Source of the DNA: Chloroflexota bacterium
GTDB taxonomy: Bacteria; Chloroflexota; Dehalococcoidia; Bin125
Reading direction: 5' to 3'
Assembly: GCA_028874365.1 (NCBI GenBank)
Contig: JAPPJZ010000069.1
Location: forward strand, 1 to 42,153
Length of the DNA stretch: 42,153 bases
The first letter of the stretch is position 1. The number at the start of each line of letters is the position of its first letter. The notes under the pieces were generated by a model. The model searched no databases. It was given only the letters and a program-made list of their open reading frames with translations, and was not told where the DNA came from. The translations under genes were made by a program, and so were the position numbers. Positions 2,079-15,741 of the stretch are shown in pieces.

Positions 2079-3599
2079 GTGGACGCAGGTGAAGCTCTCC
2101 TCCTGCTGTTGCTGATCCCGGGAGCGGCGATGCTGCTCACGATCCTCGTGCCCTCGCGGCACGCCAACGTCGTGCGCTGGATCGCGCTGATCGCCACGAC
2201 CGCCACGCTGATCGACTCGATCTGGATCTTCGCCGTCTACGACTTCGCGCAGGGCGGCTACCAGTTCGACTTGCAATACCCGTGGATTGAGAACATCGGC
2301 TTCCTCGGCGAGAACGGCATCTCGCTGCATCTCGCCGTCGACGGTATTGCGGCGCCGATGGTGTTGTTGAACGGGCTGGTTGGGTTTGCGGGCGTGCTCG
2401 TCTCCTGGAAGATCACGCACCGGGTCAAGGACTTCTTCATCCTCTTCATGGCGCTGTTCACCGGCGTCTACGGCGTCTACATCGGCCAGGACCTGTTCTT
2501 CTGGTTCTTCGCCTACGAGCTCGCCGTGCTGCCGATGTACCTGCTGATCGTGATCTGGGGCTCGACGAACAAGGAATACGGCGCGATGAAGCTGACCATG
2601 GTGCTGGTCGGTGGCTCCGTGCTGATCTTCGTCGGCATCTTCGCCGTCTTCGCCGAGGCCGGCGCGGGCACCTTCGATATGGCGGTCCTGCGCGATATCG
2701 AGTTCGGCCGCGGCTTCGCCAACACGTTCTTCCCCTTCTTCATGATCGGCTGCGGCGTCCTGGCCGGTCTGTTCCCCTTCCATACCTGGTCGCCCGACGG
2801 TCACGTGGCCGCTCCGACGGCGGTCTCGATGCTCCACGCGGGCGTGTTGATGAAACTGGGCGCATTCGGCATCATCCGGCTGGGCATGGAGATCCTGCCG
2901 GCCGGCACCGACTTCTGGATGCCGGTCCTGCTCGTGCTGGGCGGCGTGGCCGCCGTCTACGGCGCGATTTCGGCCATCCACCAGACCGACCTCAAGTTCG
3001 TGATCGGTTATTCGTCCGTCTCCCACATGGGCTTCGTGCTCATGGGCCTGGGCACGATGAACAACATCGGCGTCAACGGCGCCGTGCTGCAGATGTTCTC
3101 GCACGGCGTGATGACCGCCCTCTTCTTCGCCATGGTCGGCGGACTCTATGACCAGGCCCACACCCGGGATATCCGCGTCTTCGGCGGGCTCGTGCGCAAG
3201 ATGCCGTTGTTTGTGATCTTCTTCGGCATCGCCGGCCTGACCTCGCTCGGCTTACCGGGATTGTCGGGATTCGTGGCCGAGTTCCACATCTTCGTCGGCA
3301 CGATCGACACGTTCCCGCTCTTCGCCGCGCTGGGCATCCTCTCGGCCGCGCTGACCGCGATCTACGTGCTGCGGCTGATGGGCCGCGCCGCGCTTGGTCC
3401 GTTCAACCCGCGCTGGGAGAACCTGAAGGAGCTCTCGCGCTGGGAAATCGCCGCGGCGATCGTGCTGATCGCGCCGATTATCGCGATGGGCGTCTGGCCC
3501 GACCCGTTCATCGACCGGATCGCGCCCACCGTGGCGGAATTGCCGAACATTGACCAGATTGGCGGACTGTTCACGCTCAGTTCGCTGACCGGACGGTGA
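2079..3599 (+). CDS. nuoM: NADH-quinone oxidoreductase subunit M
   Basis: This is the second antiporter-like membrane subunit of complex I, 506 residues. Recognisable features are the glutamate helix FFAYELAVLPMYLL (about residues 145-158), the core motif PFHTWSPDGHVAAPTAVS (about 232-249) and IGYSSVSHMGFVLMGLG. It starts with GTG at 2079, chosen because a strong AGGAAGGGG ribosome binding site lies at 2062-2070. The stop codon overlaps the GTG start of nuoN by 4 bases (GTGA at 3596-3599), pointing to translational coupling. Confidence 0.97.
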   Translation: MDAGEALLLLLLIPGAAMLLTILVPSRHANVVRWIALIATTATLIDSIWIFAVYDFAQGGYQFDLQYPWIENIGFLGENGISLHLAVDGIAAPMVLLNGLVGFAGVLVSWKITHRVKDFFILFMALFTGVYGVYIGQDLFFWFFAYELAVLPMYLLIVIWGSTNKEYGAMKLTMVLVGGSVLIFVGIFAVFAEAGAGTFDMAVLRDIEFGRGFANTFFPFFMIGCGVLAGLFPFHTWSPDGHVAAPTAVSMLHAGVLMKLGAFGIIRLGMEILPAGTDFWMPVLLVLGGVAAVYGAISAIHQTDLKFVIGYSSVSHMGFVLMGLGTMNNIGVNGAVLQMFSHGVMTALFFAMVGGLYDQAHTRDIRVFGGLVRKMPLFVIFFGIAGLTSLGLPGLSGFVAEFHIFVGTIDTFPLFAALGILSAALTAIYVLRLMGRAALGPFNPRWENLKELSRWEIAAAIVLIAPIIAMGVWPDPFIDRIAPTVAELPNIDQIGGLFTLSSLTGR

Positions 3600-5161
3600 C
3601 ACTGATGGACCTCGAATATCAGCTGATCATCCCCGAATTCGTCATGGCCGGCCTGGCCGTGGTCGTGATCGCGGCTGCGCTGATGTTCCGCCAGGTGGAC
3701 CAGAAATGGTTCGGCTACTTCACGGCCGCCGGCCTGGCGGTGATCGCGATCGTGACCGCAGCCGCCTATTGGAACACCAACGACGATTTCGGCACGGTGC
3801 TCGCGGTCGACCACTTCACGGTGCTGTTCCGTGTGTTCTTCCTCGGAATCGCATTCTTCACGGTCATGGCCGCGGTTCAGTTCGCCGGAGACCGGCTCAA
3901 GAACCACGCCGAGTTCTACGGCCTGATCGTCTTCGCGACGCTGGGAATGATGCTGCTGGCGGCGTCGCGTGAGCTGTTGACCGCGTACCTCTCGCTCGAA
4001 CTGCTCTCCTTCAGCTTCTACATCCTGGTCGGCTTCAACAAGCTGAATCCCTTCTCCAACGAGGGATCGCTGAAGTACATGCTGCTGGGCGCGTTCTCGT
4101 CGGCGCTCATGCTCTACGGCATCTCGCTGATTTACGGCGTGACCGGGACGACGACCTATTCGGCCATCGGCCCCGACGTGGCCGAGGGCACCCGCAACAT
4201 CGCCGACCAGCTCGCCTCGTTCGCGGGCGGCAGCGGCGGCGTTGACCCCGACGGCGCGCGGCCCGGCCTGCTGATTGGCCTGGTCCTGATCATCGCCGGG
4301 CTCGGCTTCAAGGTCTCGGCTGTGCCCTTCCACCAGTGGACGCCCGACGCATACCAGGGAGCGCCGCTGCCGATCACCGCATTCCTCAGCGCCGGCGGCA
4401 AGGCCGCCGCCTTCGCCTTCTTCCTGCGCCTCTTCTCCGAGGCCTTCCTGCCCGCCGCTGCCGAATGGGTCTGGTTCGTCGGCATCCTGGCCGCGGTGAC
4501 GATGATCGTCGGCAACCTGATGGCGCTGCAGCAGACCAACTTCAAGCGACTGATGGCCTATTCGTCTATCTCGCAGGTCGGATATCTGCTGGTCGGGATC
4601 GTCGCGCTCAACGCGGCCGACATCGGCCAATCGCAGGACGCCGCCTCGGCGCTGGTGCTGCATTTGATCGGCTACGTCACGACCAATATCGCCGTGTTCG
4701 CTGCGATCATCGCCTTCTACAACCGCAGCGGACGCGACGACATCATCGATCTGCGCGGCCTGGCCGAACGTCAACCGTTCCTCGCCTTCTCAATCGCGGC
4801 TGCGCTGTTCTCGTTAGCCGGGATGCCGCTGTTCGCCGGGTTTGCGACGAAGTTCATCATCTTCCAGGCCGCGTTCAACAACGGATTCCTCTGGCTGGGG
4901 GCGATCGGCGTGACCGTCTCGTTCGTTTCGCTCTACTACTACCTGATGGTGATCAAGCAGATGTACCTGTACGAGCCGGAGGGCTCCGACCGGGCCCGCT
5001 TCCACGTCTCGCGGCCGCTGGCCGGGGCGCTGGTCGTGTTGGTCGCCGGAGTGCTCTTCATCGGCCTCTACCCGACCCCGTTGTTCGACGTGATCCACAG
5101 CTCGACCGAGGGTCTGTTCGAGCAGGCAGCCGCGCTGTCGGCCTCGGTGGTCGGGAACTAG
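3596..5161 (+). CDS. nuoN: NADH-quinone oxidoreductase subunit N
   Basis: Third antiporter-like membrane subunit of complex I, 521 residues and normally last in the nuo operon. The core motif PFHQWTPDAYQGAPLPITAF, the AYSSISQVGYLLVG segment and LAGMPLFAGFATKF are all typical of NuoN. The GTG at 3596 overlaps the nuoM stop; an in-frame ATG at 3605 is an equally possible start three codons later. The next gene, a methyltransferase, begins 60 bases after the stop on the same strand and could be co-transcribed. Confidence 0.96.
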   Translation: MTLMDLEYQLIIPEFVMAGLAVVVIAAALMFRQVDQKWFGYFTAAGLAVIAIVTAAAYWNTNDDFGTVLAVDHFTVLFRVFFLGIAFFTVMAAVQFAGDRLKNHAEFYGLIVFATLGMMLLAASRELLTAYLSLELLSFSFYILVGFNKLNPFSNEGSLKYMLLGAFSSALMLYGISLIYGVTGTTTYSAIGPDVAEGTRNIADQLASFAGGSGGVDPDGARPGLLIGLVLIIAGLGFKVSAVPFHQWTPDAYQGAPLPITAFLSAGGKAAAFAFFLRLFSEAFLPAAAEWVWFVGILAAVTMIVGNLMALQQTNFKRLMAYSSISQVGYLLVGIVALNAADIGQSQDAASALVLHLIGYVTTNIAVFAAIIAFYNRSGRDDIIDLRGLAERQPFLAFSIAAALFSLAGMPLFAGFATKFIIFQAAFNNGFLWLGAIGVTVSFVSLYYYLMVIKQMYLYEPEGSDRARFHVSRPLAGALVVLVAGVLFIGLYPTPLFDVIHSSTEGLFEQAAALSASVVGN

Positions 5162-5221: not shown

Positions 5222-6259
5222 ATGAGACTACATACGCTTTCCCGCCGACTGCACGCAGCGTTTCGAGGCTCGGACGTCCAACGTCGGGTGCGAGACTTCG
5301 ACGAATGGATGGACCACGCGGATACGGGCGATGCCGGTGGCACCGGCTACAACCACGCAGAAACGGTCCTGGAGTACTACAACCTGTGCAGCGATTTCAT
5401 GGTCTTCGGCTGGAGCGAGTCGCTGCATTTCGCCCCGCTCTCGCCCCGCGAGAGCCTGGAGGAGTCCCAGATCAAGCATCAGCGATCGATCATTGACAGC
5501 CTCGATCTGCAGGAAGGCATGTCGGTCATCGACGTCGGTTGCGGGGTCGGCGGCCCGATGCGCAGAGTCGTCCGTGAAGCGGGCGTCCGCGTGCTTGGCG
5601 TGAACATCAATGAACAGCAGCTCGCTCGCGCGAAAGCGCTCCATGCCGAGGCCGGGATCGGCGACATGGTCGACTATCTCGCCGCCAGCTTCATGGACAT
5701 GAGCGCGATTGCGGATGAGACCTTCGATCGCGGCTATGCAATTGAGTCGACCTGTCACGCGCCGGACAAGGTGGGCGCGTTCGCCGAGATCTACCGGGTG
5801 CTCAAGCCCGGCGCCCTGTTCTGGGGTCAGGAGATGTGCCTGACAGATGTGTTCGATCCCGAGGACAGCCGTCACCAGACAATCAAGGCTGAGTTGCAGC
5901 GAGGGATCGCACTCAATGAGATCGCGACGACCGGAGAGGTGGACCGGGCGCTTGAGGCGGCGGGATTTGAGATCATCGAAGGCCGGGATCGGGCCGTGGG
6001 ACAGGACTACGCGGGCACGCCCTGGTACCTGCCGATGCAAACGTACGGCGGCACCAAGCGCGGCGCTCTACACACGATCCCGTTGGGCCGACAGGCCATG
6101 ATCGGCGGCGTTCAACTCGCGGAGATGCTCAGAATCTTCCCAAAGGGTTCGGCGGATGTGATCAGAATGATGGATCGCACGGCGAACGCGTACACCGCGG
6201 GCGGCGAGACCGGGATCTTCACGCCGCTCTACTGCTTCCTGGCGCGCAAGCCTCTGTAG
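5222..6259 (+). CDS. Sterol 24-C-methyltransferase-like SAM-dependent methyltransferase
   Basis: The 345-residue protein matches the sterol 24-C-methyltransferase (SMT/Erg6) family along its length, not just a generic methyltransferase fold. In order: the substrate-region motif YYNLCSDFMVFGWSESLHFA (about 52-71, the counterpart of the YEYGWG...SFHFAP region), SAM motif I VIDVGCGVGGPM (about 102-113), the SMT-specific YAIESTCHAP (about 174-183), IYRVLKPGALFWGQE, and a C-terminal domain ending IFTPLYCFLARKPL, which is the usual SMT ending. ATG 5222 follows AAGGGA at 5213-5218. Family members transfer methyl from SAM to the C-24 side-chain carbon of sterols. No sterol-synthesis genes (squalene epoxidase, oxidosqualene cyclase) are in the window, so the real substrate is unknown: an acquired sterol, an endogenous sterol or another isoprenoid. 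It is convergent with the glutamine synthetase-like gene. Confidence 0.82.
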   Translation: MRLHTLSRRLHAAFRGSDVQRRVRDFDEWMDHADTGDAGGTGYNHAETVLEYYNLCSDFMVFGWSESLHFAPLSPRESLEESQIKHQRSIIDSLDLQEGMSVIDVGCGVGGPMRRVVREAGVRVLGVNINEQQLARAKALHAEAGIGDMVDYLAASFMDMSAIADETFDRGYAIESTCHAPDKVGAFAEIYRVLKPGALFWGQEMCLTDVFDPEDSRHQTIKAELQRGIALNEIATTGEVDRALEAAGFEIIEGRDRAVGQDYAGTPWYLPMQTYGGTKRGALHTIPLGRQAMIGGVQLAEMLRIFPKGSADVIRMMDRTANAYTAGGETGIFTPLYCFLARKPL

Positions 6260-6272
6260 ACGTTCCCGCTGC

Positions 6273-7622
6273 CTAGAGGACGGCGAGGTAGCGGCGCAGT
6301 TCGTAGTCGGTCACCTGCGAGCGGTACTCGTCCCACTCAAGCCGCTTGTTTTGCAGCACGGTCGACCAGACGTATTCGCCCAGCACGTTCTTCATCAGGT
6401 CGGACTTCGAGAACGCCTCGATTGCGCGTCCCTGGGTGGTGGGCATCTCGAGGATGTCGCGAGCGGCGCGCTGCGCCTGGGTCAGTTCGAAGACGTTGTC
6501 CTCGGCGGCCGGGGGCGGAGCCAGACCCTCGTCGATGCCGCGTAGTCCGGCCGCGAGGAAGGCCGAGAAGGCCAGGTAGGGATTGGTGGCTGAGTCAGCG
6601 CCGCGATACTCGAGCCGGGTCGACTCGGAATCGCCCGGATCGTATTCGGGGATGCGGACGAGGTCGGACTGGTTCGCGTGCGACCAGGTCAGGTAGACGG
6701 GCGCCTCGGTGCCGGGCGCGAGCCGCTTGTAGCTGTTGGACCACTGGTTGGTGATCAGGGTGAACTGCGGGGTGTAGGCGAGCAGGCCGGCAAGGAAGGA
6801 GCGCGCGATCTCGGAGAGGCCGCCGCCCTCCTCGTAGAACAGGTTCTGCTCGTGATCCCAGAGCGAGAGGTAGACGTGCATCCCCGAGCCGTTGACGCCG
6901 TTGAGCGGCTTGGGCATGAAGGTCGCGTGGACGCCCTGCTTGATCGCGACCTCCTTGACCACCAGACGCGTCGTCATGACCTGGTCGGCCATGGTCAACG
7001 CGTCGGTGTAGCGCAGGTCAATCTCGTGCTGCGACGGCGCGGCCTCGTGGTGGGAGGACTCGACGCCGATGCCCATCTCCTCGAGCGTGAGCACCGTCTC
7101 GCGGCGCAAGTCGGTGGCGGTGTCGAGGGGTGAGAGGTCGAAGTAGCCCCCGGAGTCGAGCGGCGACGGATCGTCGGGGGCGCGGAAGTAGAAGTACTCG
7201 ATCTGCGGCGCGACGTAGAAGGTATAGCCGCGCTGCTGGGCGGACTCGAGCTGACGTCGCAGGACGCGGCGGGGGTCGCCTTCGAACGGTTCGCCGTTGC
7301 GCCGATGGATGTCGCAGATCATTCGCGCCACCCGGTGTTGCTGCGGACGCCAGGGCAGGACGACAAAGGTGTCCGGATCGGGCAGGGCGACCATGTCCGA
7401 TTCATCGTGTCGGGCGAAGCCCTCGATCGACGCGCCGTCGAACTCGACGCCGTTTTCCAGGGCGTTCGGCAGCTCGTCGATCGTGATCGCGACCGACTTG
7501 AGCTGGCCCAGGAGGTCCGTGAACCAGAGCCGTACGAAGCGAACGTCATGCTCGCGGCACGCGTTAAGAACGTGCTGGTGCTCACTCGGAGGAGCGTTGA
7601 GGTCGCCGTTCAGGCTGGTCAT
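6273..7622 (-). CDS. Glutamine synthetase-like protein, divergent at catalytic positions
   Basis: A 449-residue type I glutamine synthetase homologue of the shorter alpha class (Bacillus/Thermotoga-like), complete with the FDGASIEGF loop, SHHEAAPSQHEID, NGSGMHVYLSLW and the C-terminal RLEYRGADSATNPYLAF. Two positions stand out. The usual PEPEF metal-site motif reads PQIEY, so the counterpart of Salmonella Glu129 is Gln. The usual RNRS segment reads ANQS, so the counterpart of Arg339 is Gln. The adenylylation-site tyrosine is Phe (NVFEL). It lies 63 bases downstream of the canonical glnA on the same strand and is probably co-transcribed with it. The gap holds a 21-bp palindrome. It may ligate glutamate to another amine, or be a regulatory or inactive paralogue; a normal glutamine synthetase is less likely. 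Confidence 0.85.
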   Translation of the reverse strand: MTSLNGDLNAPPSEHQHVLNACREHDVRFVRLWFTDLLGQLKSVAITIDELPNALENGVEFDGASIEGFARHDESDMVALPDPDTFVVLPWRPQQHRVARMICDIHRRNGEPFEGDPRRVLRRQLESAQQRGYTFYVAPQIEYFYFRAPDDPSPLDSGGYFDLSPLDTATDLRRETVLTLEEMGIGVESSHHEAAPSQHEIDLRYTDALTMADQVMTTRLVVKEVAIKQGVHATFMPKPLNGVNGSGMHVYLSLWDHEQNLFYEEGGGLSEIARSFLAGLLAYTPQFTLITNQWSNSYKRLAPGTEAPVYLTWSHANQSDLVRIPEYDPGDSESTRLEYRGADSATNPYLAFSAFLAAGLRGIDEGLAPPPAAEDNVFELTQAQRAARDILEMPTTQGRAIEAFSKSDLMKNVLGEYVWSTVLQNKRLEWDEYRSQVTDYELRRYLAVL

Positions 7623-7639
7623 GTCGACTGGTGCACTCT

Positions 7640-7660
7640 CCCTCTCCCTCAGGGAGAGGG
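7640..7660. repeat. Dispersed palindrome, copy 1 (CCCTCTCCCT / AGGGAGAGGG)
   Basis: A perfect inverted repeat with 10-bp arms around one central base, located between the two glutamine synthetase genes. Near-identical copies occur at 36664-36684 and 39690-39710. Such CCCTCTCCC...GGGAGAGGG elements are a known type of intergenic repeat in several bacterial groups. On the - strand one arm supplies a GGGAGAG sequence upstream of the second synthetase start, about 13 bases away. Confidence 0.8.
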
Positions 7661-7685
7661 GATCAGCGGGAGATTTACGCGCCCC

Positions 7686-9104
7686 CTAGATGTGGTAATA
7701 GTGGAAGAACTCAGCCGCCACCGGGTGCATGAAGACATCACGCGCTTCGGTCAGCTTGAAGTCCTGGTACTCGTCGATCAGATCCTGGGTGAAGACTCCG
7801 CCTTCCATCAGGAAGTCGTGATCGGCGGCCAGCGCCTCGAGCGAACCTTCGAGCGAGTGCGGCACCGAGGGAATCCCCGCGGCCTCTTCGGCGCTCAGCT
7901 CGTAGATGTCCGTGTCGACCGGGTCGTCCGGCTCGATCCTGTTGCGGATCCCGTCGAGGCCGGCCATCAGCATCGCCGAGAAGGCGAGGTACGTGTTGGC
8001 CGAGGCGTCGGGCGGTCGGAACTCGATGCGCTTGCTGTTGGGCGACGTCTCGTACGTCGGGATGCGGACCGCCGCCGAGCGGTTGCGCTGCGAGAACGCC
8101 AGGTAGATCGGCGCTTCGAAGCCGGGCACCAGTCGCTTGTAGGAGTTGGTCGTGGGCGCGCAGAAGGCGAGCAGCGCCGAGCCGTGCTTGAGCAGGCCGC
8201 CGATGTAGTGGCGTGCGGTGTCGGATAGCTCGGCGTACCTGCCCGCCTCGTAGAAGAGCGGCGAGCCGTCCTTCCACAGCGACTGGTGGCAGTGCATGCC
8301 GGTGCCGTTGTCGCCGTAGAGCGGCTTGGGCATGAAGGTCGCCGACTTGCCGTGCGCCTTCGCGACGTTGCGGACGATGTGCTTGTACCACTGGGTCTCG
8401 TCGGCCTTGTTGCGCAGCGTGTTGAAGCGCGTGGCAATTTCGCCCTGGCCGCCGGTCGCGACCTCGTGGTGGTGGACTTCCAGCTCCATCCCGACTGCTT
8501 CCATCGCGTCGGCCATCTCCCAGCGGATGTCGCTCAGGGTGTCGAACGGCGCGGTCGGCGAGTAACCCTGCTTGGGCGGGATCTTGTAGCCCAGGTTGCT
8601 CTCGTCTTCGTCGCGGCCGCTATTCCAGTCGGCCTCGTCCGATTCGACGACGTAGAAGGCCTGGTTGATCGACATCTGGAACTGGACGTGATCGAACATG
8701 AAGAACTCGAGCTCGGGACCGAAGAACGCCTGGTCGGCGATCCCGGAGTCGATCATGTGCTGTTCGGCCTTTGTCGCGACGTAGCGCGGGTCGCGGCTGT
8801 AGCGGTCGCCGGTCACGGGGTCGTGGACGTCGCAGATGAACTTCAGCGTCGGCACGTTCTCGGTCGGGTCGATCCGCGCCGAGTCGAGATCGGGGCGCAG
8901 CAGCATGTCCGATTCGTCGATGCTCTGGAAGCCGCGCAGCGAGGAGCCGTCGAAGCCCTGGCCGCGATTGACCAGATCCTCGTCGACCTTCGAGGCCGGG
9001 ATGCTGAAGTGCTGCCAGCGGCCGATCAGGTCGGTGACCAGCAGGTCGACGCGGCGGATGCCCTGATCCTGGATCAGGGCCTGGATGTCGCCAAGGGTTG
9101 CCAT
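7686..9104 (-). CDS. glnA: Glutamine synthetase, type I
   Basis: Canonical 472-residue glutamine synthetase, which makes glutamine from glutamate, ammonia and ATP and is the core of nitrogen assimilation. Signature segments are GFDGSSLRGF, FGPELEFFMF with both metal-site glutamates, HHHEVATGGQGE, NGTGMHCHQSLW, NSYKRLVPGFEAP, SQRNRSAAVRIP and KRIEFRPPDASANTYLAFSA. The stretch DIYELSAEE corresponds to the adenylylation loop and keeps a tyrosine, as in the beta class. The ATG at 9104 was chosen over the upstream in-frame ATG at 9167 because GAGAGG sits 9 bases before it and MATLGDIQALIQ is the usual kind of N-terminus. A candidate promoter and regulator box lie at 9206-9259. Confidence 0.96.
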   Translation of the reverse strand: MATLGDIQALIQDQGIRRVDLLVTDLIGRWQHFSIPASKVDEDLVNRGQGFDGSSLRGFQSIDESDMLLRPDLDSARIDPTENVPTLKFICDVHDPVTGDRYSRDPRYVATKAEQHMIDSGIADQAFFGPELEFFMFDHVQFQMSINQAFYVVESDEADWNSGRDEDESNLGYKIPPKQGYSPTAPFDTLSDIRWEMADAMEAVGMELEVHHHEVATGGQGEIATRFNTLRNKADETQWYKHIVRNVAKAHGKSATFMPKPLYGDNGTGMHCHQSLWKDGSPLFYEAGRYAELSDTARHYIGGLLKHGSALLAFCAPTTNSYKRLVPGFEAPIYLAFSQRNRSAAVRIPTYETSPNSKRIEFRPPDASANTYLAFSAMLMAGLDGIRNRIEPDDPVDTDIYELSAEEAAGIPSVPHSLEGSLEALAADHDFLMEGGVFTQDLIDEYQDFKLTEARDVFMHPVAAEFFHYYHI

Positions 9105-9205
9105 GGGCCTATGCCTCTCTATGCTCTGCGCGGTGGAGTGGGGGCCGGTTGGAGTGGCACGGGGCACTGCCGCCTACCGCACAGGATCGATGACTGCTGC
9201 GAATC

Positions 9206-13521: not shown

Positions 13522-15741
13522 TTAGCGGAGGGCCGACTTTTGCGGCCGGGCCAGGACCATGTGCAGCGCGACTCCGAGCATGCGCCGGACGCGCGTGCGC
13601 ACCGGGATCGGCGGGTCGATCGTGAGGTCCGGCAGTATCGTGTCGAGCCACCTGGGCATGTACCAGTTGATCGGACCGGCAACCTGCATGAAGGCGGGCA
13701 CGAGCACAAGCCGGACGAGCGTGGCGTCGATGAAGATCGCGAACGCCATGCCCATGCCGAACTCCTTGACCGCACGTTCGTCGCCGAAGAAGGCGAAGCT
13801 GCCGAACACGGCAATCAGGATGGCCGCGGCTGCGGTGATCACGCGCGCCGATGCGCCGATACCGAAGGCAACCGACTCGCCGGAGTCTTTGGTCTCCAGC
13901 CAGTGCTCGCGAATCCGCGACAGCAGGAAGATCTCGTAGTCCATCGAGAGCCCGAAGAGGATTGCGAACATGAACATAGGGATGAACGACTCGATCGGGC
14001 CGGTTCTGTCGAGTCCGATCAGCGAGAGTCCCCATCCCCACTGGAAGATGGCGACGGTGAACCCGAGCGCGGCTCCGATGGCCAGCATGTTGAGGACGGC
14101 GGCCTTGAGTGGCACGACGATCGATCGGAAGGCCATCATTAGCAGCAATATTGAGACGCCGATCACAATGACGAAGAAGAACGGCAGCCGCGAGATCATC
14201 TTGGCGGTGACGTCTTCGTAAGCCGCGACCGCGCCGGCGATGTAGATCGTGGTCCGCGGCACAGCGTCCGCGAGTGCGAGGGGAACGGCGCCCTCGCGAA
14301 GCCGTCCGACCAATTGGCGCGACTCTTCTGCCTGGGGCGCTGTCGTGGGAACAATCGGGATCAGCGCTGTCTCGCCGTTGGCAGAGATGTCGGGCGGCAG
14401 GACGGCAGCGACGCCGTCGGTGGCCGCGACGGCGCGGGTGACGGCTTGCAGGTCAGCGGGGGTGAGTCGTTGGTTCGTGTTGTCGACGACGGCAAAGAGG
14501 GTGCCGTTGGTTCCCGGACCGAAGGCATCGGAAATCAGGTCGTAGGCGCGGCGCGAGGTGTAGGAGGTAGGTCGGTTGCCGTCGTCGGAGACGCCAAGTT
14601 CCATGGTGAAGGCGGGAATCGTGAGCGTGATCAGGATGGCAGAAGCGAGGAGCAGGTAGATCAGGGCGCGGCGTTCGATGCGACGGGAGAATCGGTACCA
14701 GCGGCCGTGTTCTCCGCCGGCGGTGTAGTGCAATCCGGGAATCGAGAACCTGTCGATTCGGCGTCCGATGATCACCAGCATTGCCGGCAGCAGCGAGATC
14801 GCGACCAGCATTTCGAGCAGCACGACCATGGCCGCGGCCAGTCCCAGGTTGGCAATCAGGGGGATGCCGATCGCAAACAGCCCCAGCAGCGAGACGACGA
14901 CGATCGATCCGGCAAACGCCACCGCGCGTCCGGCGGTGGTGATCGCGGCTCGCGCTGCCTCCCGCGGATCGAGACCCGCCGCGAGCTGCTCGCGGAATCG
15001 AGCGATCACGAATAGCGCGTAGTCGATGCCGACGCCGATGCCGAGCATGGCGCCGAAGGTGGGGGCGACCGTCGAAATGTCGAGCCATGCGGCGGCGATG
15101 ACGATGCCGACGGTTCCGATGGCGAGGCCGACCAGCGCGGATACGATCGGCATGCCGGCAGCGAAGATTGACCCGAAGCCGATGATCAGGATGATCGCCG
15201 CTGCGGCCAGCCCGACCAATTCGGCCACGCCGGGGGGTTCGGTCTCGTACTCGCGGACCGGCTCGCCGCCGAAGTCGATTTGGAGCGTCTCAGTCCGGAG
15301 TGCCTCTCCGTACTCGATCACCGCGCCAATGTTGTCGACGTCAAGATCGTTGGAGAGCTTGTCGAAGGCAACGCGGACGATGGCGGTCTGACCGTCAGGC
15401 GAGATACTGCCCGGCCGCTGGTGCGGAAGATCGACGAGAGCAACCTCGTCCACGGTCATGGCGTGGCGTGCAAAGGCGTCCATCGCGGTCGCCGCCTCGG
15501 AGCTGTCGACGCGGCCGTTGGGCGCGTGGAAGACGGCCATCAGCTCGGAGCCGGAGCGTGCGGGGTAGCGCTCGGAGAGCAGATCGAAGGCGGCCTGGGA
15601 CTCGGTGCCGGGAACGGTGAACGAGTCGGTGAGCGTGCCGCCGAAATTGCGCACGGCAACAACGGCCACCACGACCAGGACGATCCACATGAGGACGACG
15701 CGCCACGGATGTTCCGCGACGAATGCCGACCAGCGTTCCAT
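13522..15741 (-). CDS. MMPL/RND family transporter
   Basis: A 739-residue membrane protein with the two-fold MMPL layout: a TM helix after the cytoplasmic N-terminus (VVLMWIVLVVVAVVAV), a first extracellular domain, five helices, then a repeat of the pattern. Each half has the GxxxDY motif of the proton relay: GIGVGIDYALFVIARFREQL and LFGLSMDYEIFLLSRIREHW. In actinobacteria such proteins export lipids or other hydrophobic molecules by proton motive force; the substrate here is unknown. GGGAG lies 8 bases before the ATG at 15741. It sits 74 bases downstream of the DoxX gene on the same strand, with a small hairpin between (15763-15781), so a shared transcript is possible. Confidence 0.9.
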   Translation of the reverse strand: MERWSAFVAEHPWRVVLMWIVLVVVAVVAVRNFGGTLTDSFTVPGTESQAAFDLLSERYPARSGSELMAVFHAPNGRVDSSEAATAMDAFARHAMTVDEVALVDLPHQRPGSISPDGQTAIVRVAFDKLSNDLDVDNIGAVIEYGEALRTETLQIDFGGEPVREYETEPPGVAELVGLAAAAIILIIGFGSIFAAGMPIVSALVGLAIGTVGIVIAAAWLDISTVAPTFGAMLGIGVGIDYALFVIARFREQLAAGLDPREAARAAITTAGRAVAFAGSIVVVSLLGLFAIGIPLIANLGLAAAMVVLLEMLVAISLLPAMLVIIGRRIDRFSIPGLHYTAGGEHGRWYRFSRRIERRALIYLLLASAILITLTIPAFTMELGVSDDGNRPTSYTSRRAYDLISDAFGPGTNGTLFAVVDNTNQRLTPADLQAVTRAVAATDGVAAVLPPDISANGETALIPIVPTTAPQAEESRQLVGRLREGAVPLALADAVPRTTIYIAGAVAAYEDVTAKMISRLPFFFVIVIGVSILLLMMAFRSIVVPLKAAVLNMLAIGAALGFTVAIFQWGWGLSLIGLDRTGPIESFIPMFMFAILFGLSMDYEIFLLSRIREHWLETKDSGESVAFGIGASARVITAAAAILIAVFGSFAFFGDERAVKEFGMGMAFAIFIDATLVRLVLVPAFMQVAGPINWYMPRWLDTILPDLTIDPPIPVRTRVRRMLGVALHMVLARPQKSALR

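Follow-up and report, generated by a model that had tools for sequence, protein, structure and literature searches.

Bacterial sterol methyltransferases (SMTs), their presence in sponge symbionts, their horizontal transfer and fused SMO/OSC proteins have all been published. Most of the bacterial SMTs tested by Brown et al. 2023 (PMC10070321) methylate sterols, with desmosterol as substrate. Kelly et al. 2022 (PMC9531527) describe ERG24-CYP51-LSS clusters in Ircinia symbionts from 10 phyla, with evidence of horizontal gene transfer and an SMT at the edge of the cluster. In the yeast enzyme, the segment known as region I directs methylation and deprotonation (PMC5711494). The view that sponge biomarkers are the oldest fossils of animals is anchored in sponge sterols whose side chains are unusual, and it is disputed which partner produces these sterols.

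Here, we analysed a window of 42,153 bp, which is an entire contig (C17) of a 3.12-Mb MAG from a Dehalococcoidia-like member of the Chloroflexota (96.1% complete, 2.3% contaminated; the host genome). We propose, with a probability of roughly 0.6, that the SMT encoded in this window serves as the methylating enzyme in a mobile sterol-tailoring module carried mostly by sponge symbionts and acting on home-made or host sterols.

Judged by its domains and motifs, the window protein is a member of the SMT family and a predicted SAM-dependent C-methyltransferase. It displays the family architecture, namely a class I SAM methyltransferase domain (Methyltransf_11, aa 103-200, with additional Pfam matches to the CMAS superfamily) followed by a C-terminal Sterol_MT_C domain (PF08498; 58.1 bits against a cut-off of 21.7), and carries the family motifs DVGCGxGGP and YAIExTCHAP. 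The preliminary description had pointed to SMT-specific motifs, and YAIESTCHAP, GWSESLHFAP (aa 63-72) and IFTPLYCFLARKP (aa 332-344) were indeed all found. A tocopherol, glycine/sarcosine or mycolate methyltransferase, which it had named as the outcome that would overturn the assignment, is contradicted by NCBIfam scores far under the respective cut-offs (e.g. 60.9 against 550 bits), and no NCBIfam family scored above its cut-off. The protein is 35% identical to yeast Erg6, with which it shares the domain order, the SAM motif and the YAIE-CHAP region. A fold search with the model of the window SMT returned superfamily methyltransferases only, with no solved SMT among the matches listed; the nearest solved folds include prenyl-substrate C-methyltransferases (TleD and the GPP and FPP methyltransferases), which represent the superfamily. 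The atypical region I noticed earlier is also real: in place of the canonical YEYGWGxSFHF with Y81 and E82, residues M60-V-F-G-W-S65 align to Y81-E-Y-G-W-G86 of yeast Erg6. We have therefore filed the window SMT as a divergent branch of the family rather than as a proven C24-SMT. Methylation of a sterol at C24 is plausible from the sequence, and the canonical reaction is uncertain because the sterol site is remodelled.

Table 1. Features of the window SMT locus and sterol-related genes elsewhere in the host genome (positions without a contig name refer to the window)
Feature	Position	Strand	Evidence or remark
nuoN	3596..5161	+	60 bp upstream of the SMT, same strand; Pfam PF00361; neighbour conserved within the genus only
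Window-type SMT, 345 aa	5222..6259	+	Single frame from ATG; Pfam Sterol_MT_C and Methyltransf_11; in the 81-sequence clade
Region I, MVFGWSESLHF (aa 60-70)	5399..5431	+	Erg6 Y81>M, E82>V, F89>L; columns tallied across 110 SMTs
SAM-binding motif, DVGCGVGGP (aa 104-112)	5531..5557	+	Conserved across all SMT clades
Region III, YAIESTCHAP (aa 172-181)	5735..5764	+	Erg6 E195 and H199 retained
WGQEM (aa 201-205)	5822..5836	+	Clade-fixed W, Q, M; most other SMTs have A, Y, W/Y
Sterol_MT_C domain (aa 286-344)	6077..6253	+	Pfam; put at C17:6074-6253 by a profile search of the genome's contigs
Glutamine synthetase	6273..7622	-	Convergent with the SMT; Pfam Gln-synt_C; 96-98% identical in five relatives
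Cluster SMT	C58:34586-35722		Sterol cluster
Squalene epoxidase-oxidosqualene cyclase fusion, 1164 aa	C58:35750-39244 (L008 11750-15244)		Pfam SE, SQHop_N, SQHop_C
CYP51	C58		357 bits to Methylococcus CYP51
ERG4/ERG24-type reductase	C58		ERG4_ERG24, 242 bits
SdmA-like Rieske oxygenase and 3Beta_HSD-like dehydrogenase	C58		SdmA/SdmB identity by homology only
Squalene-hopene cyclase, separate	C59		DxDD motif

The position directly after nuoN, which the preliminary description had stressed, is genuine: the order nuoL-nuoM-nuoN-SMT-glnA is kept in five independent genomes (L012, L013, L014, L026 and L034), so that neither the frame nor the position of the SMT is due to chance. Chloroflexota/Dehalococcoidia MAGs come nearest at this locus, their NuoL being 97-100% identical. 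The complex I neighbourhood proved to be a property of this genus, since in other phyla the neighbours of the SMT are a P450, a Rieske oxygenase and transporters. The remark that no other sterol gene is in view applies to the window but not to the genome, where sterol genes are found on contig C58. Nor is the SMT an isolated acquisition: the clade in which it falls crosses phyla, and its partner genes are conserved. At its fixed locus, the SMT is under purifying selection yet evolves much faster than the neighbouring nuoN: in the five relatives it is 71-79% identical, against 95-99% for the adjacent NuoN, and compared with the closest relative its dN is 0.138 and its dS 0.80, against 0.006 and 0.38 for nuoN. 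The dN of the SMT on C58 is 0.041. Two glutamine synthetase genes adjoin in tandem downstream (6273-7622 and 7686-9167, minus strand). An MMPL-family transporter gene (13522-15741, minus strand), 80-93% conserved in the relatives, lies about 7 kb from the SMT; it encodes a different protein from the MMPL transporter of the module described below.

The window SMT has 338 relatives in GTDB genomes, the best 80 of which are 63-79% identical and span at least seven phyla, namely Chloroflexota, Actinomycetota, Pseudomonadota, Gemmatimonadota, Nitrospirota, Acidobacteriota and Dadabacteria. A quick tree of 110 SMTs, built with provisional eukaryotic sequences as outgroup and confined to SMTs, places the window type in a single clade of 81 sequences (SH-aLRT 100; stem of 0.76 changes per site), apart from the C58 cluster type, the type of a further SMT on contig C14 and a third, FYEYGWG type. 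In a subtree of 71 rows, 66 of them labelled by phylum, 15 changes of phylum were counted for six phyla, a pattern consistent with horizontal transfer and, possibly, some binning error; all but a few of the loci come from MAGs, so some cross-phylum placements may be such errors. By their records, most carriers seem to come from marine sponges. Ten are Aplysina aerophoba bins (L015, L031, L039, L048, L052, L053, L054, L079, L083 and L089); a table of PMC5649159 contains their accession prefixes and bin numbers. The record names of the remaining carriers resemble sponge projects.

Residue columns were counted over the same 110 SMTs, numbered after yeast Erg6. All 81 window-type proteins have M in the Y81 column, where other bacterial SMT clades have Y or F, and L in the F89 column, where these clades have F. 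The A221 and W225 columns are likewise invariant (W and M, respectively, in 81/81), Q occupies the Y223 column in 80/81, and V or I the E82 column in 72/81. At these positions, canonical residues prevail in the other bacterial SMT clades. The window-type clade retains the SAM motif, E195 and H199, which suggests that the core of the chemistry was kept while the sterol pocket changed. Since region I is altered throughout the clade, its members may act on something other than an ordinary delta-24 sterol.

To identify partner genes, neighbours were clustered around 80 window-type SMT loci. A fusion of a GPP34 domain to a cytochrome P450 (e.g. L019 11075-13099 and relatives) neighbours the SMT at 44 loci by clustering and lies within 10 kb of it at 47 by blast; a KshA-type Rieske oxygenase was found at 29 loci by clustering and at 40 when the host genome's own protein served as query. 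An MMPL protein (23 loci), a flavin amine-oxidase-like protein (23-26) and a second RND protein (11-12) recur less frequently. The host genome has its SMT alone at nuoN and four partner genes together at C58:47138-54395, some 3 kb further along than the sterol cluster, and at three Nitrospira loci a window-type SMT/partner pair adjoins the sterol cluster itself. Linked or not, the genes co-occur: a full-length GPP34-P450 is present in 21 of 22 carrier genomes across phyla, the exception being a 1.7-Mb assembly, and a KshA-type Rieske oxygenase in 20 of the 22, one of them only partial. Among 400 Chloroflexota genomes, the P450 accompanies the window-type SMT (≥59% identical) in 23/23 cases and is found in 4/377 genomes devoid of it; these four count against the module reading. 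At the genus level, the figures are 6/6 and 0/218 (Fisher p ~6e-12). The distances of SMT and P450 correlate (Mantel r 0.57; 0 of 5000 permutations), a measure that on its own does not separate co-evolution from shared ancestry.

The closest PDB relatives of the Rieske partner are 3-ketosteroid 9-alpha-hydroxylases, its C-terminal Pfam domain being KshA_C, and the MMPL protein of the module matches the Sterol-sensing domain at 55 bits. The GPP34-P450 keeps the ExxR and heme-cysteine (FGLGTHxCLG) motifs and seems to lack the usual I-helix threonine, the CYP51 position aligning without gaps to an invariant tyrosine, Y481; the oxidation step that it may perform is therefore uncertain. A fold search with its model returned general P450s including CYP51, which leave the substrate undecided.

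Searching the host genome for squalene epoxidase and oxidosqualene cyclase, as had been suggested, revealed both, fused, on C58 (SE 79.7 bits; SQHop_N and SQHop_C 171 and 200 bits). The cyclase carries the motif DCTAE (WHGWPVSDCTAEA); two residues before it stands a valine, which we take to be the lanosterol-type residue and which makes lanosterol the likely first product. With genes for C14 and C4 demethylation also present (Table 1), the host genome is, by gene content, predicted to be able to make sterols. A profile search of the contigs gave four Sterol_MT_C matches, of which three remain as credible SMT genes: those on C17 (window), C58 (cluster) and C14. The fourth, on C73, was rejected as the host's own because its contig probably is contamination from a diderm symbiont: its tetranucleotide correlation is 0.38-0.55 with the host's contigs and 0.66 with an alphaproteobacterial locus (host contigs among themselves, 0.57-0.82), and its RND, LolA-like and P450 genes best match diderm symbionts. 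This 9.8-kb contig (L010) holds a second GPP34-P450 (4366-6375) and a window-type SMT (7092-8132). Contig C20, likewise foreign-looking, was also set aside. Beside the C14 SMT, genes for a membrane protein (L009 11209-12945 and 13537-15273) and an amidohydrolase-like protein (L009 8164-9780 and 15469-17076) are duplicated.

We propose that the window-type SMT, the GPP34-P450, the KshA-type Rieske oxygenase, the flavin amine-oxidase-like protein and the MMPL/RND transporters form a module that would have spread by horizontal transfer among bacteria living mostly in sponges. The SMT would methylate an alkene in the sterol side chain; oxidation or desaturation of that molecule would fall to the P450 and Rieske enzymes, and its transport to the MMPL/RND proteins. 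We infer the nature of the substrate and of the transported compound, the order of the steps and the supply by the host from sequence data. In the window's bacterium the sterol could be home-made, since C58 encodes epoxidation and cyclisation, C14 and C4 demethylation and a second SMT. No oxidosqualene cyclase was found in most other carriers, whose sterol would be expected to derive from the sponge or neighbouring symbionts. That the partner oxidases travel with the SMT even in bacteria apparently unable to make sterols suggests that symbionts remodel sterols inside sponges. A bolder version, to which we give only tentative credit, is that the horizontally shared module enables symbionts from many phyla to methylate and oxidise sterols of the sponge that they do not make themselves, the methylation by the SMT being non-canonical, e.g. 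at C26 as in aplysterol. Aplysterol is the main sterol of A. aerophoba, the sponge from which ten of the carrier bins derive.

It is unlikely, in our estimate, that the window SMT is instead an ordinary C24-SMT, one of three paralogues (C17, C58 and C14) that methylate the bacterium's own sterols at C24 in succession, its linkage to the P450 and Rieske genes being incidental. The three credible SMT genes and the complete-looking sterol cluster with its own SMT would suit such a division of labour, and single bacterial SMTs perform one to three methylations (Brown 2023, PMC10070321). The distribution of sterol synthesis among the carriers argues otherwise. A fused oxidosqualene cyclase was found in 13 of 50 carrier genomes (G017 having the C-terminal part only), with full-length fusions also in Nitrospira and Acidimicrobiia carriers; no such cyclase was found in the other 37, so most carriers appear unable to make sterols, although carriers other than L023 and L045 (below) are MAGs and some absences may be gaps. 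Cyclase matches at 28-36% identity in carriers were not accepted as oxidosqualene cyclases, since all those fetched carry the DxDD motif of the squalene-hopene type. Among the 22 carrier genomes screened for CYP51, it was found in eight, every one a cyclase carrier, and in none of those lacking the cyclase. Two nearly single-contig assemblies, a 2.6-Mb Dehalococcoidia (L023) and a 1.6-Mb Dadabacteria (L045), have neither cyclase nor CYP51. The near-perfect co-occurrence with the P450 and the replacement of Y81, E82, F89, Y223 and W225 also speak against an ordinary C24-SMT.

The strongest counter-argument to a sterol-tailoring module is the changed sterol pocket, which allows for a non-sterol substrate. 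The enzyme could have evolved from an SMT into a C-methyltransferase for another isoprenoid or lipid, such as a squalene-type triterpene, a quinone, a carotenoid or a fatty acid, and algal squalene methyltransferases are SMT relatives. The long stem branch, the rarity of sterol synthesis among the carriers, the CMAS-superfamily match and the prenyl-substrate enzymes among the nearest folds, although the latter similarities are superfamily-wide, point the same way. We nevertheless consider this improbable given that the Sterol_MT_C domain is retained, that the partners include a KshA-type steroid Rieske oxygenase and an MMPL protein with a sterol-sensing match, and that a sterol cluster adjoins the pair in the three Nitrospira loci and the partners in the host genome. 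That the sequence is contaminating or chimeric, or the gene decaying, is hardly credible: the MAG contains some contamination and C73 and C20 look foreign, but C17 matches the host's other contigs in tetranucleotides (0.68-0.82), the recurrence of the locus in five relatives with near-identical NuoN refutes contamination for the window contig, and purifying selection (dN 0.14, dS 0.80 against L012) contradicts decay.

If the bolder version is true, some unusual sponge sterols and the fossil biomarkers derived from them would be products of bacterial tailoring. A defined gene set in symbionts of at least seven phyla, mostly without detected sterol synthesis, gives grounds for expecting bacteria to tailor host sterols and provides concrete enzymes to test. 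In biomarker arguments, the sequence type of an SMT is worth checking beyond its copy number.

Compared with described systems, the sterol cluster on C58 is of the type reported from Ircinia symbionts by Kelly et al. 2022 (PMC9531527), where a mean cluster length of 5.9 kb agrees with the presence of a fused squalene epoxidase-oxidosqualene cyclase. The fusion itself is not new, as fused SMO/OSC homologues are mentioned in the methods of Brown 2023 (PMC10070321). The part of Kelly et al. 2022 considered here mentions no additional, remodelled SMT accompanied by GPP34-P450, Rieske, flavin oxidase and MMPL partners, and no occurrence of it in genomes devoid of the cyclase. In a limited literature search, which covered the main text of PMC10070321, we found no description of the remodelled clade, its GPP34-P450 and Rieske partners or its occurrence without sterol synthesis. 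The SMTs of Brown et al. 2023 (PMC10070321) belong to the same family and to sponge-symbiont settings (A. aerophoba), some of them in sterol gene clusters; no P450 is mentioned in the main text, and a remodelled region I marks the window type. Relative to the yeast and plant enzymes (Erg6 and SMT1), six sterol-site columns differ, and the residues that replace them are fixed, or nearly so, throughout the window-type clade.
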